Shown one piece after another: positions 20,714 to 43,216 of a stretch of 64,000 bases of DNA; position 1 is the stretch's first letter; every line of letters starts with the position of its first letter. This stretch comes from Desulfohalovibrio reitneri. GTDB lineage: Bacteria > Desulfobacterota > Desulfovibrionia > Desulfovibrionales > Desulfovibrionaceae. The translations under genes and the position numbers were made by a program. The notes beneath the pieces were generated by a model. That model searched no databases, had not been told where the DNA came from, and saw only the letters and a list, made by a program, of their open reading frames with translations. The stretch covers positions 1,623,501-1,687,500 of the forward strand of contig NZ_JOMJ01000003.1 of assembly GCF_000711295.1 (NCBI RefSeq), written 5' to 3'.

Positions 20714-20746
20714 CCGCGGGCCGTCCTCGCTAGGCGCGGCCCGCGG
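20714..20746. terminator. Possible hairpin between convergent stops
   Basis: CCGCGGGCCG (20714-20723) pairs with CGGCCCGCGG (20737-20746) around a 13-nt loop between nfnB and the Maf-like gene. No T tract follows on either strand, so its role as a terminator is uncertain. It overlaps the end of the Maf-like gene. Confidence 0.4.
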
Positions 20747-22508
20747 GCGGGCGAGCCCGGTACAGCCGGGCAAGCTCGGCGAAGGGCACGATCTGGGGGA
20801 AGTCCTTCCAGGGAATGACGCGCCGCACCGCGGCCATCGCCTCGGGCGTGGCCGCCAGGGCGGTGCGAGCCTGCAGCCAGCGAAAGAGGTCGTTGTAGGG
20901 CACTTCGTCATCCGCGTCCGTGCCCCCGCCGTCGGCCAGAACCAAAATCCGCACCCTGGCTCCGGCCAGCTCCCCCGCGATACGTTCCGCCCAGGCCCTC
21001 CGCTCCTCGCGCAGGGCCAGCAGGTGGATGTCCTGCCCCTTGCCCAGGCTCATGGCCAAGGCCGTCCAGGCCAGCCCCAGCCGCAATCGATTTTCCCAGC
21101 GGTCCAGCATCTCCCGCAGCGCGCCCAGCACCTGGGGCTTGTCCATGAAGGGCACCCGCTTGCTCCCCCCGGCCTTGGCCAAACTCTTGAGGAAAGGATG
21201 GCGGTCGATCCACTCCACCGCCCCTTCCTGGGGAATACCCTCCACCAGCCGCCGCTGGCTGGTCAGCGACTCCAGTTGCTTGAGCAGGCTCATCTTCAGC
21301 CGCAGTGGATGCAGCGATTCCTCTCCCCGGTCGGCCTCAGCCAATCCGGCCTCCAGGCCGGTGCGGTCCAGGGTGGGCATGTCCAGCAGTTCCCGGCCGG
21401 ACACGTCCGGGGCCAAATCGGCCGAGAGGATTCCGCCGCCTTCCAACACCCGGAAGGATACTCCCTGCGTTTCGGTGATCTCGCGCATGACCGTTTCCAC
21501 TTCCCCGGCGGTGGCAAGGTAGTGGAAGGTGGTCCGCTTTGGCTGGCCATGGCGGTCGTCAAGCTGGATGTGGTGACACGAATCGTCCAGCAACGGGGCT
21601 TGGCAGCGCCCCTGCTTGGGCTTGGGGGCGCGCAGCGCGCCGGAGTAGTAGACCTCTCCCTCCACGGGAAAGCACAGGTCCGAACCGGTGAGGACCACCG
21701 GCGAGCAGCCCAGGGTCTCGGCCAGCCCCATGCAGGGCATGAGCGAGCTGAGCCAGGACTCGCGCAGCCGGAAGGGGTTGGGCAGGATGTCCGGGCTGAA
21801 GGACTCCATGAAGAATACGCCGGCAAAGCGGTGGGCGACTTCCGCCACAGGGGCCACGCTCAAGGCGACCAGGGTTGTGCCCGAGAGGTCCAGGTACTCG
21901 GGGAAAAACAGGCCCTGCTGGCTGGTGCAGTCCAGCTGCACCAAAAAGTCGGGCATGGCTCCGTGCTGATGACACATTGGCAGGCAGCGGGAGATGGTGA
22001 CAAGCAGACAGTGCTTCTTCAGCTCGGCCAAGTGGGGGCCGATTTCCTTGAGGCTGGGGCCGGGCAGCAGAAGCAGGGCCGGCTTGCCCTCCCCCGCGCC
22101 GGACAGCTTGTCCGCCAAGGGGTGTAGCAGATGCAGGGGAACGTTTTCGGCCAGCCGCAGGTGGTGGAGGATGTTGAAAGGGGTATTCTCCCGTACGCCC
22201 TGGGGGTCTGGCAGATCCTCCGAGGCGGCGGGAAGGTGGAAATACTTGTAGTGGACGGACACCGCCCAGGCCTGCATCTCCCGCACCGCCTCCGGGTTTT
22301 CCTCCCAGGCCCCCTGTGCCAGCAGGAAGTGGACGCCGTGGCGGAAACGCTCCACCGGGGTGGCCCGGGCCGCCTCCAACTCCTCCGGTGAAAAGGAGGG
22401 CACGCGAACGGCCCCTTCGGAAATCTCCTCCGCCGCCACCGGTCCCAGTGCCAGCACCAGGGAGCGGCCGTCGTACTTCTCCAGGGAGCCTATGGACGTT
22501 CGTATCAT
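20730..22508 (-). CDS. Motility-associated (Maf/DUF115) glycosyltransferase-like protein
   Basis: The 592-residue protein has the central DUF115/MptE-like region ALLLLPGPSLKEIGPHLAEL followed by LLVTISRCLPMC and a PDFLVQLD strand, as in Maf proteins that attach nonulosonic acids to flagellin. It has no signal peptide. AGGA lies before the chosen ATG; 58 upstream in-frame residues overlap the neighbouring GT2 gene and are rejected. It is the second gene of a minus pair with that GT2. Maf family members are linked to flagellin glycosylation, and a CMP-sugar synthetase lies in the divergent block, so a flagellin target is a reasonable inference. No flagellin gene is in the window. Confidence 0.75.
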   Translation of the reverse strand: MIRTSIGSLEKYDGRSLVLALGPVAAEEISEGAVRVPSFSPEELEAARATPVERFRHGVHFLLAQGAWEENPEAVREMQAWAVSVHYKYFHLPAASEDLPDPQGVRENTPFNILHHLRLAENVPLHLLHPLADKLSGAGEGKPALLLLPGPSLKEIGPHLAELKKHCLLVTISRCLPMCHQHGAMPDFLVQLDCTSQQGLFFPEYLDLSGTTLVALSVAPVAEVAHRFAGVFFMESFSPDILPNPFRLRESWLSSLMPCMGLAETLGCSPVVLTGSDLCFPVEGEVYYSGALRAPKPKQGRCQAPLLDDSCHHIQLDDRHGQPKRTTFHYLATAGEVETVMREITETQGVSFRVLEGGGILSADLAPDVSGRELLDMPTLDRTGLEAGLAEADRGEESLHPLRLKMSLLKQLESLTSQRRLVEGIPQEGAVEWIDRHPFLKSLAKAGGSKRVPFMDKPQVLGALREMLDRWENRLRLGLAWTALAMSLGKGQDIHLLALREERRAWAERIAGELAGARVRILVLADGGGTDADDEVPYNDLFRWLQARTALAATPEAMAAVRRVIPWKDFPQIVPFAELARLYRARPPAGRA

Positions 22509-24424: not shown

Positions 24425-25828
24425 ATGACCGAACCGCGCTGCCTGGCCCCCTGGACCGACCTGCACTTCACCCCCCTGGGCATCGGCACCCTGTGCTGCT
24501 GCCTCTACAAAGGCAAGCCCTTCCCCCTGTCCGTGGAGGAGCTGGACATCCCGGCCCTGTGGTACACCGACTGGTACCGCGACATCCGCCGCGCCTTCCG
24601 CGACGGGGAGGTGGCGGACAGCGGCTGCCGGGGCTGCCGCAACCTCACCCCCGCGGACCGCTACGCCCCGGAAATCCCCGACGATCTGGCGCCCAAACAG
24701 GAGGCCAACTACCGCAAGGCGGTGGAGGCCAGCCAGGCTGCCGATCCCGACTCCGACCACCTGCCGGTGCGCTACAGCGCGGAGTTCACCACCCGTTGCA
24801 ACCTGCGCTGCGTCATGTGCGCCCAGCACGACTCCCGGGACAAGGCCAAGGTGGGCGAGGTCTCCGGCCGGGCGCTGCTGGAGAACATGGATGCGCTTGA
24901 GGCGGCGGACAGCTTCCGGGTCAGCGGCGGGGAGCCGCTTGTCTCCAGCGAGGCGATCGATTTCATCCACGCCATGGCCACCGACCCCAGGCTGGCCAAC
25001 CTGCACCTGCATCTCATCACCAACGGACTGTTGCTGGACCGGGTGCTGGACGACCTGCGCTCCATCCGCCGCATGCAACTCAACGTCAGCATTGACGCCG
25101 TGGGCGAGCGGTACGCCCGCATCCGCCGGGGCGGCTCCTGGGAGAAGGTTTCAGCCAATCTGGAGAGGGTCGCGGACATGCGCGAGCGGCTGGGCAAGGA
25201 CCGCTGGGTGGTCAACGCCTCCACCGTGCTCATGAAAACCTCGGTGGAAGGCTTGGTGGAGTACGTGCGCTGGTGCCTGGACCGCTCCATCCAGCCCCTG
25301 TTCCAGCCCCTGACCCCCACCCGCCAGACCCGCCACGAGGACTTGGCCGGCAACCCCGCCCTGCTGGAAACACTGCCCTGGCGGGAGAATCTTCTGGAGG
25401 CCGAACGGCTGCTGGACGAGGCGGGCCTCGCGCGCGGGGCCGCCGGGCTGCGCCGCTACCGGCACACCCTGGAGGGAGCGGCCGAGGCCCACGGCACGGA
25501 CTGCCGCGCCCTGGACGAGGACCCGGACGAGTGGTTGGCCGCGGGACGGGCGGACGGCAAGCGGGTGGCGGTGTGGGGCACCGGCTCCAACTACCGCCAT
25601 TCCTGGGCGGACTGGCTGGCCGAGGCCAGGGACCGCTTCTCCTTCGTGGGCTTCATCGACAACGACCGGGCCAAGTGGGGCTCCACCTGCGACGGCCACC
25701 CGGTCATGGGGCCGCAGGCCCTGGACGAGGAGGCCGTGGACGTGGTCATCCTGGCCATGACCCCGCTTTTGCGCAACGATGTCCTCAAGCAGCTGCGAGG
25801 CATGGACTGGCATGGCATGGTCATCTGA
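24425..25828 (+). CDS. Radical SAM protein with N-terminal SPASM-like motif and Rossmann-like tail
   Basis: The 467-residue protein has the radical SAM core motif CNLRCVMC (Cys 125, 129, 132) and the SAM-binding SGGEPL. Before it, residues 6-71 read CLAPWTDL, then CCC (24-26), then CRGC (68-71); that order of Cys and spacing resembles a SPASM/twitch auxiliary-cluster domain, which is usually found after the core. From residue 378 a Rossmann-like domain starts with VAVWGTGSNYRH and has FIDNDRAKWGST (410-421). The first of ten co-directional genes. The substrate is unknown; a sugar or a peptide modification is plausible. An ATG nine codons earlier (24398) is an alternative start. Confidence 0.75.
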   Translation: MTEPRCLAPWTDLHFTPLGIGTLCCCLYKGKPFPLSVEELDIPALWYTDWYRDIRRAFRDGEVADSGCRGCRNLTPADRYAPEIPDDLAPKQEANYRKAVEASQAADPDSDHLPVRYSAEFTTRCNLRCVMCAQHDSRDKAKVGEVSGRALLENMDALEAADSFRVSGGEPLVSSEAIDFIHAMATDPRLANLHLHLITNGLLLDRVLDDLRSIRRMQLNVSIDAVGERYARIRRGGSWEKVSANLERVADMRERLGKDRWVVNASTVLMKTSVEGLVEYVRWCLDRSIQPLFQPLTPTRQTRHEDLAGNPALLETLPWRENLLEAERLLDEAGLARGAAGLRRYRHTLEGAAEAHGTDCRALDEDPDEWLAAGRADGKRVAVWGTGSNYRHSWADWLAEARDRFSFVGFIDNDRAKWGSTCDGHPVMGPQALDEEAVDVVILAMTPLLRNDVLKQLRGMDWHGMVI

Positions 25829-25864
25829 CAACACCGCCGGAGGCGGCATGACGCGGGAGGCGCG

Positions 25865-26785
25865 GTGAATCCCCTCGGCAAGGCGGCCTGGTGGGCCAAG
25901 GGACGGCTGTGCCTGGCCCTGAAGAAGCGCGGCTTCTTCAAGCCGGACTACACCAAGGCGGACCAGTCCAAGGACCGCGTGGCCCCCTTCGACGAATACC
26001 CCGCCTGCGACTTCTGCGGCGCGGAGGAATCCACCGAGCGGCTGGTCACTGGCGACGGCGGCCGCATCGCCGCCTGCGATGGCTGCGGCTTGTGGTTCAC
26101 CACCCCGCGCATCGCCGAGGACGTCTGGGAGGACTACCTGCTGGCCGAGACCCCGCGCTCCGTCGAGTTCACCGAGAACCGCCTCAAGTACGGCGTGGCC
26201 CTGTCCTCCAACATCAAGTTTTCCTTGCCGGGCTGGAAGGAGAAATGGCTGCGCTCCTTCGGCGCGCTGCTGGACGACCTGGAACGCGTGCACGGCGGCC
26301 CCCTGGAACGCCTGCACGACGTGGGCGCCGGGGTCGGCCTGTTCATGGAGGCGGCCCGAAAGCGCGGCATCCGCGTCAGCGGCAACGAGCTGAACGGCTA
26401 CGCCGTGCGGGCCATGCGGGAGCGCCTGGGCCTGGACGTCTCCGGCGCCCCCCTGCCGCGCATGGACATCGAGCCCCGGAGCCTGGACGCCGTGACCATG
26501 TGCGACTACCTGGAGCACTCCTACCACCCCTACCGGGACCTGCTGGCAGCCCATCGCGCCCTGCGGCCCGGCGGCGTGCTCTACGTCAACACCTTCCACA
26601 CCGGCTGCCGCGCCTTCGAGGAGCTGGGGGCCAACTGGAACTTCCTCTACTGGAACCACACCCACCACTTCGATCGGGACATCCTGACGCGCATGGTGCA
26701 AGCGGCCGGGTTCGCCCCGGTGGAAACGCGCTGCGAGCACGGCAACCCCCTCATCAGCCTCTTCGCCGTGCGGGAGGCGGACTGA
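25865..26785 (+). CDS. SAM-dependent methyltransferase with zinc-finger N-terminus
   Basis: The 306-residue protein has an N-terminal Cys-rich unit (CDFCGAEE ... CDGCGLWF, residues 49-76) as in the zinc-binding, methyltransferase-associated domain of sugar C-methyltransferases and related enzymes. A class I methyltransferase fold follows: LHDVGAGVGLFMEAARKRG, then VTMCDYLEHSYHP and ALRPGGVLYVNTF. It acts in the cytoplasm. The start is GTG with GGGAGG just upstream. It lies 36 nt after the radical SAM gene and 2 nt before the next gene, so co-translation is likely. A methyl group on a glycan or a nucleotide sugar is the probable target. Confidence 0.8.
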   Translation: MNPLGKAAWWAKGRLCLALKKRGFFKPDYTKADQSKDRVAPFDEYPACDFCGAEESTERLVTGDGGRIAACDGCGLWFTTPRIAEDVWEDYLLAETPRSVEFTENRLKYGVALSSNIKFSLPGWKEKWLRSFGALLDDLERVHGGPLERLHDVGAGVGLFMEAARKRGIRVSGNELNGYAVRAMRERLGLDVSGAPLPRMDIEPRSLDAVTMCDYLEHSYHPYRDLLAAHRALRPGGVLYVNTFHTGCRAFEELGANWNFLYWNHTHHFDRDILTRMVQAAGFAPVETRCEHGNPLISLFAVREAD

Positions 26786-26787
26786 GC

Positions 26788-27861
26788 ATGCGGCTGGTCC
26801 ACTTCTTCAACTCCTACCGCGTGGGCGGAGTGGAGCGGCAGCACGCCATGCTGGTGGAGCACCTGGCCCCCCGCTTCGAGCAGTTCTGCTGGTCCTACGA
26901 CCACGGGCCCATCGAGGACATGCTGGACGGCATGGGCATCGAGCACGTCAGCGGCGGGCCGGAGGAGGCCTTCCGGCTGGTGGAGCGCGCCGAGCCGGAC
27001 TGCCTGGTCATCCGCACCAACCGCTACGCCCGCCAGACGGCCGATTTCCTGTCCCGGCGGCCCGCCCCGGCGGTGTACATCCGCAGCTACCTGCGCTGGT
27101 GGGAGGGCAACCAGGAGTATTTCGACCCGGAGCTGGAGGCGCTGACCTACGCCAACGTGGACGCCCTGCTCTTCAGCGGGCCGAGGCTGCGCGACAACGC
27201 CCGCCGCCTGGACATGGGCCTGCCGCCCGGCGGCATCCTGCCCAACGGGCTGCGGCTGGAAAACTTCCCCATGCACCCGCGCCGGGCCGGGAAGCCGGAA
27301 CGGCTTCGGGTGGGCATGCTGGCCAACATCGCCCCGCACAAGAACCAGGCCCGCGTCATCGAGGTGCTGGGGGACGACCTGCGCGCCGGGCGGTGCGAAC
27401 TGGTGCTGGCGGGCAAGGAGCTGTTCCCGGACTACTGCCGGGAGGTGGCCCGGGCTATGGAGAGCGCCCCGGTGGCCCATCTGGGCTACGCCGCCGATCC
27501 GGCCGCCTTCTTCAAGGAGGTGGACGTCTGCTTGCTGGCCTCCACACACGAGGGCTGGCCCATCACCCTCATGGAGGGCATGGCCAGCGGCGTGCCCTGC
27601 GTGGCCCCGGACATCGGCGACATTCCGGCCGTGCTGGACCGGGGCCGGGCGGGCCTCATTTACCCGGAGGGCGAGCACGAGCGGATCCCGGCCATACTCG
27701 ACCTGCTGCGCGACCCCGAAACCTACGCCCGCTTCTCCCGCGAGGGCGTGCGCCGCGCCGGGGAGCTGGACATGCGCACCACCGGCGGGGTGCTGGAACG
27801 GACCATTCTGGAGTCGGTGGCGAGTTGGCGGGAGGCCACGGCCACCGGAGGCGCGACGTGA
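26788..27861 (+). CDS. Glycosyltransferase, group 1 (GT4-like)
   Basis: The 357-residue protein is a typical GT-B enzyme: N-terminal acceptor half beginning MRLVHFFNSYRVGGVERQHA, then the donor half with RVGMLANIAPHKNQARVIEVL and ASTHEGWPITLMEGMASG carrying the conserved Glu pair of the EX7E region. IPAVLDRGRAGLIYPEGE completes the site. GT4-type enzymes build cell-surface glycans. GGGAGG lies upstream of the ATG, which starts 2 nt after the preceding stop. The gene ends 60 nt before the second methyltransferase. Donor sugar and linkage are unknown. Confidence 0.88.
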   Translation: MRLVHFFNSYRVGGVERQHAMLVEHLAPRFEQFCWSYDHGPIEDMLDGMGIEHVSGGPEEAFRLVERAEPDCLVIRTNRYARQTADFLSRRPAPAVYIRSYLRWWEGNQEYFDPELEALTYANVDALLFSGPRLRDNARRLDMGLPPGGILPNGLRLENFPMHPRRAGKPERLRVGMLANIAPHKNQARVIEVLGDDLRAGRCELVLAGKELFPDYCREVARAMESAPVAHLGYAADPAAFFKEVDVCLLASTHEGWPITLMEGMASGVPCVAPDIGDIPAVLDRGRAGLIYPEGEHERIPAILDLLRDPETYARFSREGVRRAGELDMRTTGGVLERTILESVASWREATATGGAT

Positions 27862-27921
27862 GTCATCCCCGGAATCGATTCGAAACGCTGTCTGACGCAA
27901 CGCATTATAAAGGAACCCGGC

Positions 27922-28902
27922 ATGGGCACCATTGAAATCGGCAAGCTCCCTTTCCTGTCCTCCACCGGCTTCGCGACCCTCGGCGAAAACTGCATCTCAT
28001 TCCTTTCCGCCCCCGGTTCCGCGACCCAGGACCAGACCGCCCAAGCATTTTCCAAGAAATGGGGGCAGATGACGCACGGGGACGCGGATTTCGAGAAGAT
28101 GGTGGCCAACCAGAAGGAGTGGTACCTGGACCTGTACGGCTTCTCCAGCGAGGACGAGCTGCGCTCCTATCTGCGGAACTGCGGCCACGTCCTGGATGCG
28201 GGGACCGGCATGGGGCACAAGGCCGCCTGGTTCGCGGAGCTTTCCCCGGAGACGTTCGTGGTGGCCGCGGACATCTCCGACTCCATCATTGAGGCCTCGG
28301 CCTACTACCGCCACCTGCCCAATCTGCTGTTTGTGCAGTGCGACATCGCCGACCTGGGCTTTGTGCGCGACAACTCCTTTGATTACGTCTCCTGCGACCA
28401 GGTCATCCACCACACCGAGGCGCCGCGCCGGACGTTCCGGGAGCTGGCGCGGGTGGCCGCCACGGGCGGGGACGTCTCGGTCTACGTCTATCGCAAGAAG
28501 GCGCTGCCCAGGGAGCTGCTGGACGACTATTTCCGGGAGGCCTGCGCGGACTACAGCCATGAGCAGCTCATGGAGCTTTCCGAGCAGCTCACCGAACTTG
28601 GCCGAGTCCTGAGTTCCCTGGACCAGCCCCTCGCCATACCCGACGTCCCTCTGCTGGGCATCGAGGGCGGGGAGATGACGGTGCAACGGTTCATCTACTG
28701 GAACCTGCTCAAATGCTACTGGAACGAGGAGCTGGGCGAGTTCGTCAGCGTCATGACCAACTACGACTGGTACTCTCCCTCCCAGGCCTTCCGGTACACC
28801 GAGGAGGAGTTCCGCTCCTGGGTGGAGGAGGCGGCCATGGAGACCGTGCATTTCCACAAGGAAAAGGCCTGCTACTCCGGGCGATTCAGAAAGACGGCAT
28901 GA
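27922..28902 (+). CDS. SAM-dependent methyltransferase
   Basis: The 326-residue protein has the class I methyltransferase motif VLDAGTGMGHKAAWFAEL, an acidic strand VVAADIS, and DYVSCDQVIHHTEAPRRTF, the region that in the family bounds the catalytic site. The N-terminus (IEIGKLPFLSSTGFATLG) carries no zinc finger, unlike the other methyltransferase of the operon. The C-terminal third is helical with QAFRYTEEEFRSWVEEA. It overlaps the next gene by ATGA, so translation is coupled. Which sugar or lipid it methylates is unknown; a second O-methylation of the same glycan is possible. Confidence 0.8.
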   Translation: MGTIEIGKLPFLSSTGFATLGENCISFLSAPGSATQDQTAQAFSKKWGQMTHGDADFEKMVANQKEWYLDLYGFSSEDELRSYLRNCGHVLDAGTGMGHKAAWFAELSPETFVVAADISDSIIEASAYYRHLPNLLFVQCDIADLGFVRDNSFDYVSCDQVIHHTEAPRRTFRELARVAATGGDVSVYVYRKKALPRELLDDYFREACADYSHEQLMELSEQLTELGRVLSSLDQPLAIPDVPLLGIEGGEMTVQRFIYWNLLKCYWNEELGEFVSVMTNYDWYSPSQAFRYTEEEFRSWVEEAAMETVHFHKEKACYSGRFRKTA

Positions 28903-30290
28903 TGACGGCACCGCAAGACAAGACCCCCCGGTGCGGCGCGCAAGCGGCGGAACCGAATCGCGGCCCCATCCGGGTGGCCTTCATCGGCAACCAGGACAAC
29001 TGCGCCTTCCGCCTCTGCCGCTGGCTACGCGCCTTCGGGTTCGATGCCCACGTGTACATGCACCCGGACAACCTCAACCAGGTCCGTTCGCGCCCGGTCC
29101 TCATGGACAGGAACTTCGACATAACGACCTGTCCGTGGGTCCACATGTACACGGACCTGAACGCCCCCTACCCCTATTTCCGCAAGACCCCGGCCTCCAG
29201 GGCCATCGAGCGCGACTTCGACTTGGTCTTCACCAGCGGCCCGTCCGTCATGTTCGGCTTGCAGTTCGACACCATCCCGGTCTTCCACATCGGCATGGGC
29301 GAGAACGCGGCCATCATCCCCTCCGTGGGCTGGCTGGACCGCAAGCCGCTGGCGGACAAAGTGACGGGCTTCATCTACCGCCGCGCCCTGCTGCACACCG
29401 ACCGGGTATTCTCCGGCATCTGGGCCAGCCTGGCCAGGCTGTGCAAGGACCTCGGCATCCAGGGCCGGGTCATGTTTCACATTTTTCCCGAGGACGTGCG
29501 GCGCAACCGCTCGTACGTGGACGCGGACCTGCTGGCGGAGCTGACCGCCAGGTACGCGGACAGCAACAAGGTCTTCCTCTGGCTGAGCCGGGTGAACTTC
29601 CAGGTGGAACGCGCCGGCTGCACCAAGCGGGCGGACGTTTTTCTGGAGGCCTTCGCCCGCGTGGCGCGGGAAGGCGGCGACGCCCGGGCGGTGGTGGGCT
29701 CCCACGGCTACGACGTCGAGGCCTTCAAGGCCAGGGCGCGGGAGCTGGGCGTGGAGGACCGCATCGACTACGTGGAGCACCTGCCCTTCTGGAAGCTGAT
29801 GACCTACCTGAGCATTCCCAACGCCGTGGTCTTCGACAACCTCAACCCGAGCGAGGCCCCGCTGGGCGGACTTTCCCGGGAAGCCCTGTCCCTGGGAGCG
29901 CCGCTGGTGCGGGCCGCGGACCTCTTCTACAACGCCCAGGTCTTCGGCGCGGAGCCGCCGCTGACCCGCGCGTCCAGCGTGGAGGAATGTTGCTCGGCCA
30001 TGGAATCCTTTCTGGCCCTGGGACCGGAGGACATGGCCGAGCGGCGCAGACGCGTTTCCGAGTGGGCGGAGACCTACCTGGACTTCCGCGAGTGCCTGAC
30101 CATGCGCCGCATCATGGCCGAGATCGGCACAGCCGTGCTGGCCTACCGCGCCATGGAGCAACGGTACGGCCACCGCTGCCTGCGGTTCCGGCTGGGCAAC
30201 GCCGCCATCCGCCCCCTGCTCATCGCCTACCGCCGCGCGGGCGAGGCGCGATCCTGGCTGCGGCAACGGCTGCGACGGAGGAACACGTGA
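28899..30290 (+). CDS. Putative GT-B glycosyltransferase
   Basis: The 463-residue protein looks like a GT-B enzyme but is diverged. The N-terminal half starts IRVAFIGNQDNCAFRLCRWL and has LVFTSGPSVMFGLQFD; the C-terminal half has VFLWLSRVNFQVE, DRIDYVEHLPFWKLMTYLSI and APLGGLSREALSLGAPLVRA, which fits a nucleotide-sugar site. It lacks the classical EX7E glutamates in clear form, so the sugar donor is uncertain. Start and stop both overlap neighbours (ATGA before, GTGA after), placing it firmly in the operon. A C-terminal helix rich in Arg (RSWLRQRLRRRNT) could touch the membrane. Confidence 0.6.
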   Translation: MMTAPQDKTPRCGAQAAEPNRGPIRVAFIGNQDNCAFRLCRWLRAFGFDAHVYMHPDNLNQVRSRPVLMDRNFDITTCPWVHMYTDLNAPYPYFRKTPASRAIERDFDLVFTSGPSVMFGLQFDTIPVFHIGMGENAAIIPSVGWLDRKPLADKVTGFIYRRALLHTDRVFSGIWASLARLCKDLGIQGRVMFHIFPEDVRRNRSYVDADLLAELTARYADSNKVFLWLSRVNFQVERAGCTKRADVFLEAFARVAREGGDARAVVGSHGYDVEAFKARARELGVEDRIDYVEHLPFWKLMTYLSIPNAVVFDNLNPSEAPLGGLSREALSLGAPLVRAADLFYNAQVFGAEPPLTRASSVEECCSAMESFLALGPEDMAERRRRVSEWAETYLDFRECLTMRRIMAEIGTAVLAYRAMEQRYGHRCLRFRLGNAAIRPLLIAYRRAGEARSWLRQRLRRRNT

Positions 30291-30982
30291 GCCGAACCCC
30301 CCTGCGCGGCCGGGGCGTCCTGGCGGTCATCCCCGCCCGGGGCGGCTCCAAGGGCATTCCGGGCAAAAATCTCCGCCTCCTGGGCGGTGTGCCCCTGGTC
30401 GGCCACTCCATCCGCACCGCCCTGGCCGTGCCAGAGATCGACCGCGTGGTGGTCTCCACGGACTCCCCGGAACTGGCCGAGGAGGCGGTGCGGCTGGGGG
30501 CGGAGGTCCCCTTCCTGCGGCCGCCGGAACTGGCCACGGACGAGGCGGAGATCAGCCAGGCCCTGCTGCACCTGCGCAACCGGCTTTTCGAGACCGAAGG
30601 CTACGCCCCGCAGGCCCAGGTGGTGCTCTACCCCACCCATCCCTTCCGCAAGGCCCCGGTGGTGGGGCGGCTGGTGGGGCGGCTGCTGGAAGGGTACGAG
30701 ACCGTGACCACCTGCCGCCGGGTGATGCCCGGCCCGGCAGGCTACCTCACGGACCACGACGGGGCGGCCCGCCCCCTTCTGGACCACGACGTCTCCCCGG
30801 CGGGCCGGACCTATTACCGTTCCTACGGCTTCTTCAAGGGCACCAGCTTCGACTTCCAGGCGCGCGGGGACTACCTGCATGTCATCGAGGACGAGGTGGA
30901 GTGCATCGACATCGACGAACCCGAAGACCTGCGACTGGCGGAGGAAGTCATCCGCCTGGGACTGTACGACTTCGAGCTATGA
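30287..30982 (+). CDS. CMP-sugar synthetase (acylneuraminate cytidylyltransferase family)
   Basis: The 231-residue protein has the CTP-binding signature VIPARGGSKGIPGKN near residue 14 and the second strand LYPTHPFRKAPVV, as in NeuA/PseF/LegF enzymes that make CMP-activated nonulosonic acids; VVSTDSPELAEEA supports the family. It would feed an activated sugar to the Maf-like protein and glycosyltransferases. The GTG start overlaps the preceding stop (GTGA) with GGAGG upstream. No NeuB-type synthase is in the window, so the nine-carbon acid, if that is the substrate, is made elsewhere. KDO cytidylyltransferase (KdsB) is less likely. Confidence 0.83.
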   Translation: MSRTPLRGRGVLAVIPARGGSKGIPGKNLRLLGGVPLVGHSIRTALAVPEIDRVVVSTDSPELAEEAVRLGAEVPFLRPPELATDEAEISQALLHLRNRLFETEGYAPQAQVVLYPTHPFRKAPVVGRLVGRLLEGYETVTTCRRVMPGPAGYLTDHDGAARPLLDHDVSPAGRTYYRSYGFFKGTSFDFQARGDYLHVIEDEVECIDIDEPEDLRLAEEVIRLGLYDFEL

Positions 30983-32186
30983 TCGCCTGCCTGCCCTTTT
31001 TCCCCAACGCCGGAGGAGCCGACTGGCTGGCCCCGGAAGCCGCCGCCCTGCTGGGTCAGACCCTGGCCGGGCTGGCCCGACTGGAGGGTGTGGCGCGGGT
31101 GGCGCTGTACACCGACTCCGCCCGCGCCGCCGCCCTGGCTTCTGGGTTGGAGGTTGTCCGGTGTTCCGCTCCACGTTCGGCGAGCCTGCAGGGCCGGGTG
31201 GCCGAACTGCTGGGGGATAAGCTGGACGGCGGCACGGCCGTGCTGGGGCTGGACCCACGCAATCCCTTCCTCCACCCGGACGACGTGTATGGGGCGCTGC
31301 GCCTGCACGCCGCCGCCCCGGACACGCCCGTGCTGTCCGTGGCCGTGCCCCGGGACCACCCGGCCCAGCTCCGCCAGTATTACGACGTGCCCGCAGCCGG
31401 GCTGGTGCTGCGCTTCGACCCCGAACCGCCCGAAGAGGCGCGCGAACTGGCCCGGGGCGGCCCGGTCTCCCGCGAATTTCCCCTGGCCTGGGGGGAGGCC
31501 GTCCCCGAGGCGGACACGCTCTCCCTGGACGCGGCCGGACGCCCCGACCTCGACGGCGGGGACTCCGGTTCGGTGCTGCTGCGCACGGGCCGGGGCACGG
31601 CGCGGCTTGTCTGGCGCGGGGCGACGGCGGACGGGAATGTCCTGGGGCCTCCTTCGGCCTGGACGGAGGCCGCCCGGCCCCGCCCTGGCTGGTTCTCGGA
31701 CCGGACGGGGTGCGGCTCGCCCTGCCGGGCATCGCGGACGGGGAAGCCCGGCTGGCCCCGTTGACCGGGGACGGCCTGGAAGAAGGCCACTGGCTGGTGC
31801 CGTCCCTGGCCGACGGCTCCGCCCGCCTGGAGGACTCGGACGCGCCCGGCTTTTTGTACGCTGTGGAGCGCGGCTGCCGGGGGGGCTCCTACGGCTTCAC
31901 CCGGCCCTTCGACCCCGGCGCGGCCTGGTCGGCCGAGCGCCACGCCACGGCCGACGGCAAGCCCATCACCGGCAGGCAGTCACTGCCGGACGTGCTGGTG
32001 CCGGACGGCAGCCTCTGCCTGGGACGGCTGGACGACCTGGCCCGCCTGGAGCACGGGGGAGGTGCCGGCGGAGCCCGGCTCCTGCGCCTGCCGCCGGAGC
32101 GCTCCTGGGCGGCGGACACACCGCTGGAACTGCTGCGGCGCGTGGTGCGGCGGCGGATGGCCGAGGGAGGCCCTGATGCCGGTTGA
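30979..32186 (+). pseudogene. Frameshifted cytidylyltransferase-like gene
   Basis: The frame starting at the ATG (overlapping the preceding stop as ATGA) stays open to 31764, but from about 31650 on, the sensible protein continues in a different frame to 32186 (SFGLDGGRPAPPWLVLGPDG, then VRLALPGIADGEARL). Adding one base near the GGGG run at 31644-31647 joins both parts into one product of about 402 residues. The N-terminal half resembles cytidylyltransferases in outline (VALYTDSARAAALASG, AVLGLDPRNPFLHPDDV) but lacks the CTP loop ARGGSKGIP. The C-terminal half is unrecognised. Next gene overlaps its end. A sequencing error or a genuine mutation are both possible. Confidence 0.6.
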
Positions 32187-33216
32187 CGCGCCCATTCCCG
32201 TACCTGTCACCTTCCACCAAGCCGACACCGTCCCCGTGGACCGCATGGCCGCGCGCCGCCTGCTGCACGGCCTGGACCCGGCCAGCCGGGGCCAGGGCAG
32301 GGCCCGACGGCTGTACGGCGACATCTGCGGCGCGGTCCGCCCGGATGCCTCCGGCGGTGAGACGCGGACCCTGCGCCTGCATCCCCAGGACTTTTTCCGC
32401 TCCGACCCCGCCCGGGGGCCGTTCATGCTCAAGCACATGGCGCTTGCCGGTCCTTCCCGGCTGCTGGGCCTGAACATCCGGGGCGGCGGCGTGGTGGCGG
32501 TCGACCTGGACGACTCCGGCGGCCAAGCGGAACCCCTGGACGCCGGGAGCTTCCGCGCCATGACCCCCTGGGGCGGCGGGCTGGCCCTGCTGGGGGAGGA
32601 CGGCCTGTCCCTCCGCTTTACCGACCGCGACATGCGCCTAGGGGAGCGGGTGGCCATCCGGGGGCTGGAGCGGCCCGCCTCCTTTCTGGCAGGTGGCGCG
32701 GACCAGCTGGCCGTGCTGGGCGAGGACGGCCCGGCCTTTCTGAATCCCACGGGCGAGGTCATCCGCCTCTGCGGCAACGGCCTGCCCTTCATTCCCTCCC
32801 TGCCCTGCCTGCTGGGCGGGGAAGCGGTGCTGCTGGAGCGTTACCCGGCCAAGGCGGACTACGGCGAAATCTCCCTGGCCGGGCCGACTGGGCGGTTCCG
32901 CCCGCTGGCCGGGGGATTCCACCGCCCGGTGGGGGCCAAGCCATTCCCCGGCGGACTGCTGGTCTGCGACTGGTCCGGACTGCACCTGCTCTTCATCAAG
33001 GACGGCGCGGTCACGGGGCGCGGCTTCCTGGACTGGCGGCCCCTCAAGGAGGCCCTCGGCCTGGGTTCCGGTCTGGGCATGGAGGCCTTTGTGGCGGACG
33101 GCCTGCTGTACGTGCTGTTCAAGACGGCCGTGCCCACCATCCCGCAGTCACAGGCCATGTGCCTGGCGCGGTTCCGGCCGAATCCGGACATTTTCTCGCG
33201 GGAGCCGGCGGCATGA
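32176..33216 (+). CDS. Unknown protein, possibly beta-repeat
   Basis: I do not recognise this 346-residue protein. It has many short strands with Gly turns (LLGLNIRGGGVVAVDLDD, ALLGEDGLSLRFTDRDMRLG, LAVLGEDGPAFLNPTGEV), a pattern of beta-propeller-like or similar all-beta repeats, and no signal peptide. The start is an ATG with GGGAGG about 6 nt upstream, overlapping the end of the frameshifted gene. It ends with FKTAVPTIPQSQAMCLARFRP. Its position between the cytidylyltransferase relative and the second radical SAM gene suggests a part in the same pathway, for example as a scaffold or sugar-binding protein; this is inference. Confidence 0.6.
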   Translation: MPVDAPIPVPVTFHQADTVPVDRMAARRLLHGLDPASRGQGRARRLYGDICGAVRPDASGGETRTLRLHPQDFFRSDPARGPFMLKHMALAGPSRLLGLNIRGGGVVAVDLDDSGGQAEPLDAGSFRAMTPWGGGLALLGEDGLSLRFTDRDMRLGERVAIRGLERPASFLAGGADQLAVLGEDGPAFLNPTGEVIRLCGNGLPFIPSLPCLLGGEAVLLERYPAKADYGEISLAGPTGRFRPLAGGFHRPVGAKPFPGGLLVCDWSGLHLLFIKDGAVTGRGFLDWRPLKEALGLGSGLGMEAFVADGLLYVLFKTAVPTIPQSQAMCLARFRPNPDIFSREPAA

Positions 33217-33255
33217 GCGCGGCGGCCCCGAGACGACGAAACAAGGAAGAACGAC

Positions 33256-34995
33256 ATGTCTGACGGTTTCGCTCCCCTGTGCGTGGCCCCCTGGGAAAAC
33301 ATCATCGTGGCCGAGAACAGGTACCGCCCCTGCTGCCGCATCATGGCCGGGGTCTACCGGCAGCCGCCCTCCAACGAGGCCGAATTGCTGGAGGTCTTCA
33401 ACAGCCCCTTCATGCGCGACCTGCGCCGGAGGCTGGCCACGGGCGACGTGAAGGGGACCGCCTGCCAGAGCTGCATCCGGGCGGAGCTGCACTATCCCGA
33501 ATTGGCCGACTACTCCCGCCTGACCGCGCCGCTTCTGCGGGAGCGGGTGGAGGCGGTGCGGGAGGCCATCGCCCAGGGCCGCGAGGAGATGGAGCAGCCC
33601 CCGCTCAACCTGGCCCTGTCCCTGCCCGGTGTCTGCAACATCCGCTGCAAGATGTGCACGGTGCACAGCGACGCCAGGCGGGGCAAGCCGCGCAAGGGCA
33701 ACGTTTTCGTGCCCCACGCCAAGAGCCTCATCGCCTCCCTGCAAAAGCGGGGCATCCCCATGCTCACCGTGGCCGGGGGCGAACCCCTGTTCACGCCCGC
33801 CACCCTGGAGATCATGGACTTCGCAGCCCGGGAGTTGCATCCGCAGACCATCCTGTCCACCACCACCAACGGCAAGCTGCTGGACAAGCACATGGACCTG
33901 CTGCGCCGGTTCGACCACCTGGACGTCAATGTCAGCGTGGACGGCCACGGCCAGGCCTACGAGGAGGTCCGGGTGGGCGAGACCTGGGAGCACATCCTCG
34001 CCAACCTCCGCCTCCTGAGCCAGGAAGCGGCCGAGCGGCCCGGATGGCGGATCGCCACCCGCACCGTGCTCATGCGCACCACCATCCCCTCCCTGCCGGA
34101 GATGGTGCCCCTCTTTCTGGAGCTTGGCTTCGAGCCGGAGTTTTCGCCCATCTTCGGGGACTTCCTGGACGAGAACGTCTACATGTTCAGCGGCCTGCTC
34201 AAGGGCATGGACTGGAAGGCGGACTTCGACCGGGGCATCGAAGCCGCCCGGGAAGCCGGGCACGAGCGGCTGCGACGCCACCTGGCCAAGCGACGGGATG
34301 AACTGGAACTGCAGGCGGAGAAAGGAATCAACACCTACTACCGCGCCTATCCGGACCGGCTGGAGCACCTCACCGCCCACCTGGAAAGCCGCTTCCGGGG
34401 CCAGCGCGTCATCTTGCTGGGGCTGACCGAGGAAACGGGCTACTTCCTCTTCCACTACCAAGCCACCGAGCCGGACTTCACCATCGCCGGGGTCTGCCTG
34501 CTGGAGGACTTGCCCGAGGAGGTCACGGAGGTGCTGGGCCTGCCCATCATCCCGCCGGAGGAAGCTCCGCGCCTGGACACACCCTTCCTCCTGGCCTGCT
34601 ATTCCCGGGATTTCGACCGCTACAAGGAGTTTGCCGAGACATGCCTGGGCAAGGAGCGCGTGCACGTCCTCTCCCCGGACGTGGTGGAGGCCAGGACGGA
34701 CGAGGCGCTGGCCCAGACCGCGGGCGGGCCGGTGGTGCTCTTCGGCGCGGGGGGATGCGCCGATCTGCTGCTGGACAGCACGGAACTGGCCCGGGCCAAC
34801 GTGGTGGCCTTTTCTGACAACGACAAGAGGAAGTGGGGCTCCACCTTCCGCGACCTGCCGGTGGTGCCGCCGAGTGAGATCCCAGAATGGGCCTCGGAGG
34901 TGGTCATTTGCAGCCGCGCCTTCGAGTACGATATAGAGCGGTCCCTGGTTGACGCCCACGGCGAGGCGCTGCGGGTGCACCGGCTGTATTCCTGA
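33256..34995 (+). CDS. Radical SAM protein with N-terminal SPASM-like motif and Rossmann-like tail (second)
   Basis: The 579-residue protein has the same plan as the first radical SAM protein of the operon. Residues 9-73 carry CVAPWENI, then RPCC (24-27), EVFNSPFMRDLRRRL and CQSC (70-73), a SPASM-like series of Cys; the radical SAM motif CNIRCKMC (127, 131, 134) follows, with VAGGEPLF next. After a linker, the C-terminal part has VVLFGAGGCADLL and FSDNDKRKWGST (519-530), matching the tail of its partner. It is 112 residues longer because of an extra region with a second Rossmann-like stretch (GQRVILLGLTEETGYFLFHY). The reaction and substrate are unknown. Confidence 0.77.
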   Translation: MSDGFAPLCVAPWENIIVAENRYRPCCRIMAGVYRQPPSNEAELLEVFNSPFMRDLRRRLATGDVKGTACQSCIRAELHYPELADYSRLTAPLLRERVEAVREAIAQGREEMEQPPLNLALSLPGVCNIRCKMCTVHSDARRGKPRKGNVFVPHAKSLIASLQKRGIPMLTVAGGEPLFTPATLEIMDFAARELHPQTILSTTTNGKLLDKHMDLLRRFDHLDVNVSVDGHGQAYEEVRVGETWEHILANLRLLSQEAAERPGWRIATRTVLMRTTIPSLPEMVPLFLELGFEPEFSPIFGDFLDENVYMFSGLLKGMDWKADFDRGIEAAREAGHERLRRHLAKRRDELELQAEKGINTYYRAYPDRLEHLTAHLESRFRGQRVILLGLTEETGYFLFHYQATEPDFTIAGVCLLEDLPEEVTEVLGLPIIPPEEAPRLDTPFLLACYSRDFDRYKEFAETCLGKERVHVLSPDVVEARTDEALAQTAGGPVVLFGAGGCADLLLDSTELARANVVAFSDNDKRKWGSTFRDLPVVPPSEIPEWASEVVICSRAFEYDIERSLVDAHGEALRVHRLYS

Positions 34996-35021
34996 GCAAG
35001 GCCCGAGAGGGCGGAGAGAGC

Positions 35022-36062
35022 ATGGCGGAAACCCCGTTCAATTTCCTCATCGTCAGCGAGCGTTCCGGGAGCAACCTGTTTCTGCGGATCATGCACGCCA
35101 ACTCCGAGTGCCTGGGGGCCGCGCCCACCCACCTGCACCGCATCATGCACAACAACCGCTCCCGCTACGGCGACCTCGCCGACGACGCCGAGTGGCGGCG
35201 CATGGTGGCGGACTGCGCCGAGCTGATGCGCACCACCTTCATCCACTGGGAAAGCGGGGTGGACGAGGAAGACCTGCTCCGCCGTTGCCGCGAGCGCAAC
35301 CCCGCCGAGGTCATCCGCCGCATCTACGAGGCCGAAATGGAGCGCTACGGCAAGTCCAGCGTGCTCATCAAGGAGAACTGGTGCTACCGGCTGGTGCCCT
35401 TCCTCATGGCCAACTACCCGGACTGCCGGTTCGTGTTCATGGTCCGCGACCCCAGGGACATGGCCCTGTCCTGGAAGCGCATCACCTGGTGGATGGCGGG
35501 CAAGGAGGACCGGGGCATCCGGGGTGGGGCGAAGCTGTGGATGGAGAACCAGCGGGACTCCCTGGAGGTCTACTCCGCCCTGCGGGACACCGGGCGCATC
35601 GTGCTGCTGCGCTACGAAGACCTGCTGCGCCGGCCTGAAACGGAACTGCGCCGGGTGTGCGACACCCTGGGGCTTGCCTACGAGCCCGCCATGCTGGACT
35701 TCCACAAGTCGGACAAGGCGCGCGGCGACGCCGAGGCCAGCCAGGCCTTCCGTAACCTCTCCTCCCCCCTGAACCCTGAGAATTACGGAAAATTCGCCAC
35801 CCAACTGGACGAGGCCGAGGTGCGCTGGATCGAGCACGTCTGCGCCAGGGAAATGGAGATGCTGGGCTACTCCCCGGTCCACTCGACAAGCGATGACTTC
35901 GAAGAGCTTGACCGGCTGGTGGACGAAGTGGAGCGACGCGAGGCGGCAGAAAGCGAGGAAAAGGCCCGCGACCCGGAAGAGGACGCCAGGCGGCAGCGCC
36001 GCTTCGAGACCCTGAAGTCCATCTTCACCCGGCCCGAGATTCCCCTCTATCCGCCGGATTAA
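35022..36062 (+). CDS. Sulfotransferase-family protein
   Basis: The 346-residue protein has the PAPS loop VSERSGSNLFLRIMHANSE (residues 11-29) and the 3'-phosphate strand FVFMVRDPRDMALSWKRI (the RDPRD form typical of sulfotransferases). TGRIVLLRYEDLLRRPETEL is the helix that usually follows. The C-terminal 45 residues are acidic and helical. It ends the plus block, with its TAA overlapping the stop of asnB from the other strand. It would place sulfate on the glycan made by the operon, drawing on PAPS, though some members use other acceptors. It shares only the family with the sulfotransferase near 13 kb. Confidence 0.8.
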   Translation: MAETPFNFLIVSERSGSNLFLRIMHANSECLGAAPTHLHRIMHNNRSRYGDLADDAEWRRMVADCAELMRTTFIHWESGVDEEDLLRRCRERNPAEVIRRIYEAEMERYGKSSVLIKENWCYRLVPFLMANYPDCRFVFMVRDPRDMALSWKRITWWMAGKEDRGIRGGAKLWMENQRDSLEVYSALRDTGRIVLLRYEDLLRRPETELRRVCDTLGLAYEPAMLDFHKSDKARGDAEASQAFRNLSSPLNPENYGKFATQLDEAEVRWIEHVCAREMEMLGYSPVHSTSDDFEELDRLVDEVERREAAESEEKARDPEEDARRQRRFETLKSIFTRPEIPLYPPD

Positions 36063-37947: not shown

Positions 37948-39258
37948 CTACTTCCGCAGGCCGCCCGGCAGGGGGAAGTAGGTGGGGCGGCCGGTCTCTC
38001 CCGGCTTGACCTTCCGTTCATAGTGCCCCTTATTGGCGGCCAGAACCCGGTCCACCAGGACGCGCAGGCGGTCCAGGGGGGCCCGCAACTCCCCGGGCGC
38101 GCCCGCTCGGCCGAAATGGGCCAGGCAGCCAGCGGTCTTGTGCAGCTCCCCCTGCAGGAACCACTTGGCGGCCAGTTCGGCCAGCTCCGCGGCTGGCAGG
38201 GCCAGGAGGTTGCCGAAGCTGGGCTCCCGCTGGCCGAGCCCCATGGCGTAGCCCTGGGCGAGATTCTGGGGCGACTGGGAGTGGCAGTCCCAGAGATAGG
38301 AGCACTCCCGGCACAGGAAGCCGTCGTCCCAGAGTTCGCTGTACCGTCCGGCCGCCAGGCGGCGGCGGAAGCGGCGGAACGCCTCCCCGTTCCAGACCTC
38401 CATGAGGGACTGCTCGGTCAGGTCGCCGAGAAAGTGGTCCTCCCGGCATTCCTCCTGGCAGTAGGCCACCTTGCCGTCGTGGCAGATGGTCAGGGTGGAC
38501 CAGGGGTAGATGCAGCACGGCAGGGCCTCGTCCTCCACCGGCCCGGCCAGGTCCGGGTTGCCTTCCTCGATGTAGCCCTGCCAGTTGAACAGGGGGTGGA
38601 AGTCCATGGAGCAGAGGTTGGGGTAGTTCGCCCGGTAGTGCTCGAACACCTCCTCCATGCCCTCGTGCATGTTCGCCCGCTGCCGCACGTAGGCCACGTA
38701 GACGTGCGGCCGCGTCTCGGGATCGGCTTGGGCCATCCAGGCGTCGAGGGCCGCCAGGTTGTCTTGCACCCGGCCGTGGTGCTCCGTGCCGTGGATGGCG
38801 CGGTAGGTCTCGGGGCTCAGGGCGCTGATGGACAGCCCCAGGGAGTCCAGGTGCGGCATGAAGGCGTCCAGCTTGTCCGCCAGGGGCACGGTGGCGTTGC
38901 AGATGACCGCCACGTGGATGTCCGGCCGCCACGTCTTGAGATGGGCGATCATATCCGGCAGCCGCTTGTTGAGGAACGGCTCGCCCTGCTTGAGCAGATA
39001 GACCTTGCGCACCCCGGCGGGAAGCTGGTCCACGATGCGCTCGAACAGTTCCATGGGCATGTGGCCGCGCTCCGGCCGCATGGCCTCGTCGTGGGGGCAC
39101 ATCACGCAGCGGTTGCTGCAGATGTTGGTGGGGTTAATGTAGACCAGCCACGGCCCGGCCTCCACCGTCTCCCGGCCGCCGGCCCAGGCCATCAGGCGGG
39201 AGTTTTCGCATTCGGCCACCAGCCGTTCCAGTTCTCCGGATCCCTCGATATGGGACAT
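37948..39258 (-). CDS. Radical SAM/SPASM protein, canonical order
   Basis: The 436-residue protein has the radical SAM core motif CSNRCVMC (Cys 47, 51, 54) at the N-terminus, then a C-terminal SPASM domain: CCIYPWSTLTIC (248-259), AYCQEEC (267, 271) and the late CREC with a further Cys (316-325). This is the reverse of the domain order in the two radical SAM proteins of the plus block. SPASM proteins modify peptides or sugars with extra iron-sulfur clusters. It overlaps or abuts the FemAB-like gene (ATGA if the start is three codons earlier, at 39267). AAGGG precedes the chosen ATG. No precursor peptide gene is visible. Confidence 0.82.
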   Translation of the reverse strand: MSHIEGSGELERLVAECENSRLMAWAGGRETVEAGPWLVYINPTNICSNRCVMCPHDEAMRPERGHMPMELFERIVDQLPAGVRKVYLLKQGEPFLNKRLPDMIAHLKTWRPDIHVAVICNATVPLADKLDAFMPHLDSLGLSISALSPETYRAIHGTEHHGRVQDNLAALDAWMAQADPETRPHVYVAYVRQRANMHEGMEEVFEHYRANYPNLCSMDFHPLFNWQGYIEEGNPDLAGPVEDEALPCCIYPWSTLTICHDGKVAYCQEECREDHFLGDLTEQSLMEVWNGEAFRRFRRRLAAGRYSELWDDGFLCRECSYLWDCHSQSPQNLAQGYAMGLGQREPSFGNLLALPAAELAELAAKWFLQGELHKTAGCLAHFGRAGAPGELRAPLDRLRVLVDRVLAANKGHYERKVKPGETGRPTYFPLPGGLRK

Positions 39259-42113: not shown

Positions 42114-43216
42114 CGCACGGCCTCCCGAAGGGTGTCCACCACCCGCTCCTGCTCGGCATTGGTCATGGTGTGGTAGAGGGGCAGGGCCAGGGCGCGGTCG
42201 AAGGCCTTCCGGCTGCCCGCCATGTCCCCTTCCAGCCGCACGGCCGGGTTGTCGCGGAAGGCGGGCTGGAGGTGCAGGGCGTAGGTGCCTATCTGCGCCT
42301 CCACCCCGGCGGCGCGCATGCGGGCCATGACCTCGTCGCGGCCGTCCACCAGCACGCAGAAGGTCTGCCAGGAGTGCTCGCCGCCAGGGGTGGTCGCGGG
42401 CAGCTCCACGCCCCCGGTTCCGGCCAGCAGGTCCAGATAGTTGGCGGCCAGCTCCCTCCGGCGGGCCAGCAGCTCGTCCACCATCTCCATCTGGGCCACC
42501 CCCAGGGCGGCTTGCAGGTTGGACAGCTTGAGGTTGCTGCCCACCATGGAAAAGACCGCGCCCTCGCGGGAGGCCTCGCGGTCCAGGCCAAAATGCTTGA
42601 AGGAATCCATCCAGGCGTCCAGGTCCGGGTCGTTGGTGGTCACCAAGCCCCCCTCGCCCGTGGTCACGAACTTGCGCGGGTGGAGGGAAAAGACCGAGAC
42701 GTCGGCCATGCCGCCCACCTTTTCGCCCCCGAACGAAGCGCCCAAGGCGCAGGCCGCGTCCTCCAGCACGCGCAGGCCGTGCTCGCGGGCCACCGCGTCC
42801 ACCCGCCCCTGATCCACGGGGTTGCCGAACAGGGAGACCGGCAACAGGGCTTTGGTGCGCGGGGTTACGGCCCGCTCCATGGCCTCGTAGTCGATGAGCA
42901 TGGTGGCCGGGTCCACGTCCACGACGACCGGGGTGGCCCCCACCAGGGCCACGGCCGTGGCCGTGGCCGGGTAGGTGTAGTCAGGCAAAACCACCTCGTC
43001 CCCCGGGCCCACGCCCAGCGCCCGCAGGGCCATCTCCAGCCCGGTGGTGCAGGAGGTCACGGCCAGGGCGTGGCCCACGCCCAGCCAGTCGCAACACATT
43101 TCCTCGAAGCGGCGGGTGACCGGGCCTTCGGTGAGGTAGCCGGAGTCCAGCACCTCCAAGACCTTCTCCCGCGCCGCGTCCGGCAGGTGGGGGCGCATGA
43201 GGGGGATGTCGTACAT
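42110..43216 (-). CDS. DegT/DnrJ/EryC1-family sugar aminotransferase
   Basis: The 368-residue enzyme is a PLP-dependent aminotransferase of the nucleotide-sugar type: SCTTGLEMALRALG binds phosphate, LEDAACALGASFGG carries the conserved Asp 153, and SLHPRKFVTTGEGG has the Schiff-base Lys 182. It would add an amino group to a keto sugar made by an epimerase or dehydratase. It ends by GTGA overlap into the formyltransferase gene and begins 5 nt after the epimerase stop. AGGA is upstream of the ATG. Product is probably a UDP- or CMP-linked amino sugar; the exact position of the amino group is unknown. Confidence 0.9.
   Translation of the reverse strand: MYDIPLMRPHLPDAAREKVLEVLDSGYLTEGPVTRRFEEMCCDWLGVGHALAVTSCTTGLEMALRALGVGPGDEVVLPDYTYPATATAVALVGATPVVVDVDPATMLIDYEAMERAVTPRTKALLPVSLFGNPVDQGRVDAVAREHGLRVLEDAACALGASFGGEKVGGMADVSVFSLHPRKFVTTGEGGLVTTNDPDLDAWMDSFKHFGLDREASREGAVFSMVGSNLKLSNLQAALGVAQMEMVDELLARRRELAANYLDLLAGTGGVELPATTPGGEHSWQTFCVLVDGRDEVMARMRAAGVEAQIGTYALHLQPAFRDNPAVRLEGDMAGSRKAFDRALALPLYHTMTNAEQERVVDTLREAVR

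Follow-up and report, generated by a model that had tools for sequence, protein, structure and literature searches.

We examined a window of 64,000 nucleotides from Desulfohalovibrio reitneri (contig NZ_JOMJ01000003.1, positions 1,623,501 to 1,687,500 of the forward strand), in which two radical S-adenosylmethionine (SAM) proteins, P0001 and P0002, are encoded co-directionally within a closely spaced run of genes (24425-36062). Each protein has a twitch domain located in front of the radical SAM core and ends in a Rossmann-like tail. The genes and their predicted domains are as follows (E, expectation value):

24425-25828, plus strand: P0001, 467 residues, with an N-terminal twitch domain, a radical SAM core and a single Rossmann-like tail
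24440-24640, plus strand: P0001 twitch domain, residues 6-72 (C6, C24-26, C68, C71), from profile comparisons
24764-25324, plus strand: P0001 radical SAM core, approximately residues 114-300 (C125, C129, C132), Pfam Radical_SAM E 1.1e-18 and a high-confidence model
25526-25825, plus strand: P0001 Rossmann-like tail, residues 368-467
33256-34995, plus strand: P0002, 579 residues, with an N-terminal twitch domain, a radical SAM core and two tandem Rossmann-like domains
33280-33474, plus strand: P0002 twitch domain, residues 9-73, from profile comparisons
33601-34185, plus strand: P0002 radical SAM core, approximately residues 116-310, Pfam Radical_SAM E 7.2e-13
34387-34647, plus strand: P0002 middle domain, residues 378-464, a probable degenerate second tail copy lacking the DND motif, from hhalign
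34708-34992, plus strand: P0002 Rossmann-like tail, residues 485-579

An initial annotation of this DNA, made from the letters alone, had described CxAPW, a CC or CCC group and CxxC ahead of CX3CX2C in both proteins, a pattern that we could trace residue by residue. P0001 carries C6-L-A-P-W10, C24-C25-C26 and C68-R-G-C71, followed by the core motif at C125, C129 and C132, and the corresponding elements of P0002 are C9-V-A-P-W13, C26-C27, C70-Q-S-C73 and C127, C131 and C134. Across seven aligned family members, exactly eight cysteines are invariant, five in the twitch domain and three in the core (C9, C26, C27, C70, C73, C127, C131 and C134 in P0002 numbering), so that the pattern is more than a chance resemblance. 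Among the six frames of the window, CxAPW and CX3CX2C occur together in a single frame only in these two genes. Both proteins exceed the PF04055 gathering cut-off of 29.5 bits (68.4 for P0001, 49.5 for P0002), the radical SAM barrel is confidently predicted in an AlphaFold model of P0001, and, given the CX3CX2C motif, the cores should bind the SAM-cleaving [4Fe-4S] cluster. The annotated reading of two related enzymes in one gene run likewise holds, the two being paralogues on the same strand with 26.5% identity (E 3e-31).

By profile comparison, the N-terminal domain of P0001 and P0002 is homologous to the C-terminal SPASM/twitch domains of other radical SAM enzymes. A hidden Markov model (HMM) trained on the C-terminal SPASM domains of unrelated radical SAM proteins (34 domains) matches approximately residues 2-74 in all seven family members (9.8-24.5 bits), in each case above the best score obtained with 2,000 shuffled N-termini (8.1 bits). 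Conversely, a profile of eleven N-terminal domains compared with all PDB sequences had as its top match the twitch domain of BtrN (E 0.0063), covering the full domain with the cysteines in register, and the SPASM domain of SuiB was also among the matches (E about 1). The Pfam SPASM model gave a weak hit to residues 6-71 of P0001 (E 0.13, 13 bits against a cut-off of 21.5) and no match to the front domain of P0002. A scan of genome contigs recovered 45 radical SAM proteins, none with a CxxPW twitch ahead of the core; those read out have SPASM after the core and thus provide an independent source of C-terminal SPASM domains.

The SPASM-like fold proposed in the initial annotation is therefore supported by the SPASM HMM and the BtrN match, and independently by the NF033640 match given below, but the domain is a twitch rather than a full SPASM. 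No cysteine lies between C71 of P0001, or C73 of P0002, and the first core cysteine (C125 and C127, respectively), which points to a twitch for one auxiliary cluster, and neither protein has the second-cluster cysteines of a full SPASM (CX5CX3C...C). When the ligand residues alone are compared, the front domain, with at least four conserved twitch cysteines, corresponds to the four-cysteine auxiliary site of BtrN. Its five invariant cysteines differ from the three of the MoaA type, making an open-site cluster of the MoaA kind less likely, and the four to five invariant residues would suffice to ligate one auxiliary [4Fe-4S] cluster completely. The SPASM/twitch domain has been described as a C-terminal extension of the core (PMC9012708); here, it occupies residues 4-74, ahead of a core at residues 114-300.

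This order of domains already has a name. The NCBIfam model NF033640 (N_Twi_rSAM, a subfamily-type entry) is the best NCBIfam match of P0001, of P0002 and of all eight relatives tested, and it is matched from the start of the profile (positions 5-308 for P0001 and 4-316 for P0002, of 398), that is, with the twitch preceding the core. Its N-terminal part also matches the C-terminal SPASM domain of a third radical SAM protein in the window (E 6e-9; see below). The match ends at about residue 300-310, leaving the Rossmann tails outside, and the scores (132.9 and 126.0 bits for the pair, 78-145 for the relatives) all lie under the curated cut-off of 170. In the literature searched, we found neither the name N_Twi_rSAM nor any paper on an N-terminal twitch or SPASM. 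Judged on these profile scores, P0001 and P0002 form a branch below the threshold of a named family for which we found no assigned reaction, rather than the new class that the initial annotation had thought possible.

In a tree of the twitch and core regions, P0001 groups with L007, from another family of the same order, and L049b, from elsewhere in the phylum (support 96/95), whereas P0002 groups with five proteins from the window's own family (99/97). With the cores in separate clades, the pair is old rather than the product of a recent duplication. This bears on the alternative that the two genes, which share one gene run and the same overall plan, are recent duplicates forming a heterodimer or a pseudoenzyme pair. 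That explanation is hard to reconcile with the tree and with the 26.5% identity, with the retention of all catalytic cysteines in both proteins and with the presence of only one member in several genomes; we regard it as highly improbable. Full-length relatives are rare: of 288 genomes in the same family, 5 have them, counting that of the window, and no close relative was found in viral contigs or phage records. Genome G358 also has two N-twitch genes in a single island, in a combination of subfamilies that differs from that of the window, and the same is probably true of G141, where one copy appears to be split at contig ends.

The Rossmann-like tails noted in the initial annotation are present in both proteins, with FIDNDRAKWGST in P0001 and FSDNDKRKWGST in P0002. 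By sequence comparison, these domains belong to a type carried by sugar-nucleotide enzymes and by enzymes that methylate sugars. A tail profile matches the Rossmann domain of UDP-quinovosamine 4-dehydrogenase (3nkl; UDP, uridine diphosphate) with E 1.1e-4, and the tails of the pair score below the Pfam gathering cut-offs of PglD_N (16.3 against 23.4) and Methyltransf_14 (12.9 against 23.5). In genome G008, the FkbM methyltransferase encoded beside the P0001-type gene has the same domain at its C-terminus, and this copy passes Methyltransf_14, the C-terminal domain of sugar C-methyltransferases, at 24.3 bits. The middle domain of P0002 and its clade is probably a second, degenerate copy of the tail, judging by hhalign (probability 95.8, E 8e-9), with direct HMM scores near those of shuffled sequences.

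As a mark of a class, a possibility raised in the initial annotation, the tail had to be rejected. Related domains occur in 106 of 285 family genomes, on methyltransferases, GSCFA proteins, CgeB-type glycosyltransferases and SGNH-like proteins (types judged by eye, not by profile), and the two tails are not each other's closest relatives: that of P0001 is 45% identical to the tail of a methyltransferase-like protein in G189 (a likeness seen by eye, without a Pfam match), 31% to that of P0002 and 24% to that of L007. In the tail tree, the P0002-clade tails group apart (98/99), with the deeper branches unresolved. The P0001-type protein of Azospirillum joins its core to a different C-terminal part, and the N-twitch proteins of G358 end in TPR repeats or in a methyltransferase-like region plus TPR. 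These differing combinations indicate that tail and core are separate modules and that the shared DND..KWG motif does not single out the pair. An apparently B12-binding radical SAM protein on an Azospirillum brasilense plasmid (L160, 21549-23282), which shares a polysaccharide island with an N-twitch relative, may end in the same tail (8.5 bits, weak).

The gene run that contains the pair also includes two methyltransferases, two glycosyltransferases, a cytidylyltransferase and a sulfotransferase, and further sugar-related genes lie on the opposite strand. Neighboring features are as follows (CMP, cytidine monophosphate; NAD, nicotinamide adenine dinucleotide):

30296-30982, plus strand: PseF-like cytidylyltransferase (CMP-sugar synthetase), between P0001 and P0002, CTP_transf_3 E 1.9e-19
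35022-36062, plus strand: sulfotransferase adjoining P0002, Sulfotransfer_3 E 6.5e-21
37948-39258, minus strand: third radical SAM protein, in the usual order and opposite in strand to the pair, Pfam SPASM E 2.5e-12 at residues 249-319
42110-43216, minus strand: PseC-like DegT aminotransferase (sugar aminotransferase)
43222-44226, minus strand: NAD-dependent sugar epimerase/dehydratase

The third radical SAM protein has its core first and SPASM last, as the initial annotation had it, but it is part of a convergent set of minus-strand genes, outside the operon of the pair. Adjoining the PseC-like aminotransferase is a formyltransferase with Formyl_trans N and C domains (40332-42113, minus strand), whose long C-terminal extension resembles a polysaccharide deacetylase by eye; this adjacency suggests an N-formyl sugar. 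The gene that follows the PseF-like synthetase (30979-32190, plus strand) encodes a homologue of a 385-residue protein in L057 (7632-8789) and is split over two frames (31614 to 31848), apparently by a frameshift in the assembly. NeuB was considered as a member of the island and set aside, the nearest copy lying approximately 34 kilobases (kb) outside the window. Further along, a CX3CX2C stretch at 53619 (plus strand), FFGGCNLRCPTCHN, looks by eye like an NrdG2-type activase and adjoins an apparent anaerobic ribonucleotide reductase (54142-56217, plus strand, by eye), an ordinary arrangement.

The neighborhoods of the relatives share much of this content. A PseF-like synthetase lies within about 5 kb of a P0001- or P0002-type gene in five of seven genomes (G000, G090, G127, G141 and G008), each of which has only three to five genes of the corresponding Pfam family; arithmetic from gene counts and genome sizes puts chance proximity at roughly 1-2% per genome, a figure that overstates the significance because glycan genes cluster anyway. 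In each of these five, the best NCBIfam name is PseF (58-136 bits; 103 bits for the gene in the window), below the equivalog cut-off of 205.7, so that the product is probably a related CMP-sugar rather than pseudaminic acid itself. Sulfotransferase_3 genes are found near the radical SAM gene in G000, G090 and G141. Relatives of the PseC-like aminotransferase occur near the P0002 orthologues in L055 and L057, both of which are accompanied by epimerase relatives as well, and the epimerase of the window (43222-44226) is 82% identical to the gene adjoining the P0002 relative in L055. In G008, a P0001-type gene stands in a row with a cytidylyltransferase gene, two additional radical SAM genes and one that by eye looks like a sulfotransferase (without a Pfam match). 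This row resembles the window in gene content, though its radical SAM protein shares only 29% identity. The Azospirillum P0001-type relative resides in a polysaccharide island, among genes for a nucleotide-sugar dehydrogenase, epimerases, FkbM methyltransferases, a carbamoyltransferase, a glycosyltransferase and two more radical SAM proteins.

N-twitch units are also found in larger assemblies. In G460, G480 and G317 (L051, L052 and L053, respectively), such a unit is embedded in giant proteins of 3,100-3,700 residues that combine TPR repeats with WbsX, GT1 and GT2 glycosyltransferases (Pfam scans covering L052 and L053). The G317 giant additionally contains a B12-binding domain and further radical SAM domains, and that of G480 contains a methyltransferase and is encoded next to a flagellin gene. 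Genome G358 (L049) has at least five radical SAM genes within about 11 kb, among them a fusion of an N-twitch unit, a methyltransferase-like region and TPR (an 899-residue frame), and a second N-twitch unit fused to TPR.

On balance, we consider it probable, from domain homology and gene setting, that P0001 and P0002 use SAM-dependent radical chemistry to tailor a sugar that this surface-glycan island makes or assembles; sugar tailoring in general can be put forward with the same or marginally greater assurance. In radical SAM chemistry, the CX3CX2C cluster cleaves SAM, and the resulting 5'-deoxyadenosyl radical abstracts hydrogen from a carbon of the substrate. Here, the reduced cluster and SAM would generate this radical, which would take the hydrogen of a sugar C-H bond; the N-terminal auxiliary cluster might then accept a second electron, as proposed for BtrN, to yield an oxidized (keto) sugar, or the radical might be quenched to yield an epimer. 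A BtrN-like two-electron oxidation of a sugar carbinol in particular is a tentative proposal, drawn by analogy. The tail may dock the nucleotide or sugar, or partner enzymes, and the substrate would most probably be either the finished glycan or an amino or acidic sugar activated with CMP or UDP. That the pair carries out two related steps on a single substrate, as the initial annotation suggested, is possible. P0001 and P0002 probably act at different positions or on different intermediates.

The epimer outcome has a specific precedent in the sugar epimerases of the NeoN/EpeE style, in which a cysteine thiol donates a hydrogen atom on the opposite face and the enzyme is re-reduced by the auxiliary cluster. 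The same set of domains, and a cysteine (C284) common to P0001, L007 and L049b, would fit such a mechanism, but P0002 lacks a cysteine at this position, and in the P0001 model C284 is in the helix before the last barrel strand, not obviously in the active site. Across the seven members, no cysteine outside the two iron-sulfur motifs is conserved, which argues against a cysteine donor as the common mechanism and makes this alternative improbable.

Modification of a peptide or protein, such as flagellin or some other surface protein that the island glycosylates, with the sugar genes supplying a glycan that is added afterwards, is unlikely, albeit less so than a cysteine-donor epimerase. Most characterized SPASM enzymes act on peptides, the 3,692-residue protein of G480 that carries an N-twitch unit adjoins a flagellin gene, and a Maf-type (MptE-like, PF01973) gene (20730-22508, minus strand), of a family linked to flagellin glycosylation, lies upstream on the strand opposite to the pair. 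Against this, the flagellin genes of this genome are located elsewhere, no Maf homologue was found next to any of the relatives, and the tail resembles domains of sugar enzymes. Flagellin glycosylation as the whole answer was accordingly discarded, with no Maf homologue beside the relatives and no flagellin nearby. The initial annotation had envisaged a sugar nucleotide or a peptide on a glycan; the glycan and sugar-nucleotide setting stands, but no candidate peptide gene was noticed beside either gene, in a survey that included no dedicated search for small precursor genes.

Several observations weigh against sugar tailoring. The BtrN match is modest (E 0.006), the pair misses the curated cut-off of NF033640, and no reaction is given in the name of that family or was found assigned to any relative, as the check for an already assigned reaction established. 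G117 and G358 have no PseF-like neighbor; in G117, the gene sits next to hydrogenase-like genes at the end of a contig. Remoter N-twitch relatives (G389, G471, G273 and G095) reside outside glycan loci. The tail is so widely shuffled that it says little about any single substrate. In the AlphaFold model of P0001, the N-terminus is predicted, with low confidence (predicted local distance difference test score, pLDDT, 44-65), as a beta hairpin that leads into helices, as would be expected for a twitch fold, and modeling covered a region that leaves the P0002 tail outside. The structural neighbors DesII, BlsE, SkfB, SuiB, NifB and viperin are tied at Z 13-15, and with matches tied among so many radical SAM families, function is not assignable from the fold; the absence of BtrN and NeoN from the 50 structural matches listed carries no weight either way.

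For this branch, the recurrent link to a PseF-like CMP-sugar synthetase provides a concrete substrate hypothesis. A broader idea, which we put forward as doubtful, is that the front-moved auxiliary domain and the sugar-methyltransferase-type Rossmann tail together define a subclass of radical SAM sugar-tailoring enzymes, in which one docking domain, shared with methyltransferases, presents the same activated acidic sugar to a radical enzyme. If true, this bacterial family and its relatives would, with the PseF-like synthetase, have an unrecognized pathway by which a modified CMP-sugar is made. The literature searched contained no radical SAM chemistry acting on surface-glycan sugars, whether nonulosonate-like or other, and the twitch/SPASM enzymes described there have the auxiliary cluster behind the core; the reversed order offers a test of the geometric needs of that cluster.

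Among known systems, N_Twi_rSAM proteins share with P0001 and P0002 the order of twitch and core, and differences lie in the scores, which stay below the family cut-off, and in the Rossmann tails, which fall outside the match. BtrN (2-deoxy-scyllo-inosamine dehydrogenase, PDB 4m7t) resembles the pair in its twitch cysteines, which are in register with those of the front domain; it oxidizes a carbocyclic amino alcohol, a carbohydrate-like substrate, and its low-potential auxiliary cluster, held by four cysteines, is thought to accept an electron (PMC9012708). It differs in having the twitch behind the core, a length of about 250 residues and no Rossmann tail, and its core is only a distant relative of those of the pair (E about 1e-6). 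The usual SPASM/twitch enzymes, such as the third radical SAM protein of the window, carry a homologous domain, with the pattern iWNs..yr.lR..l..g....C..C recognizable in both, but place it behind the core, often with two auxiliary clusters, whereas P0001 and P0002 have it in front, with cysteines for one. The tails, finally, have their sequence relatives in Methyltransf_14, PglD_N and the 3nkl Rossmann domain, known members of which serve enzymes that methylate, acetylate or dehydrate sugars.

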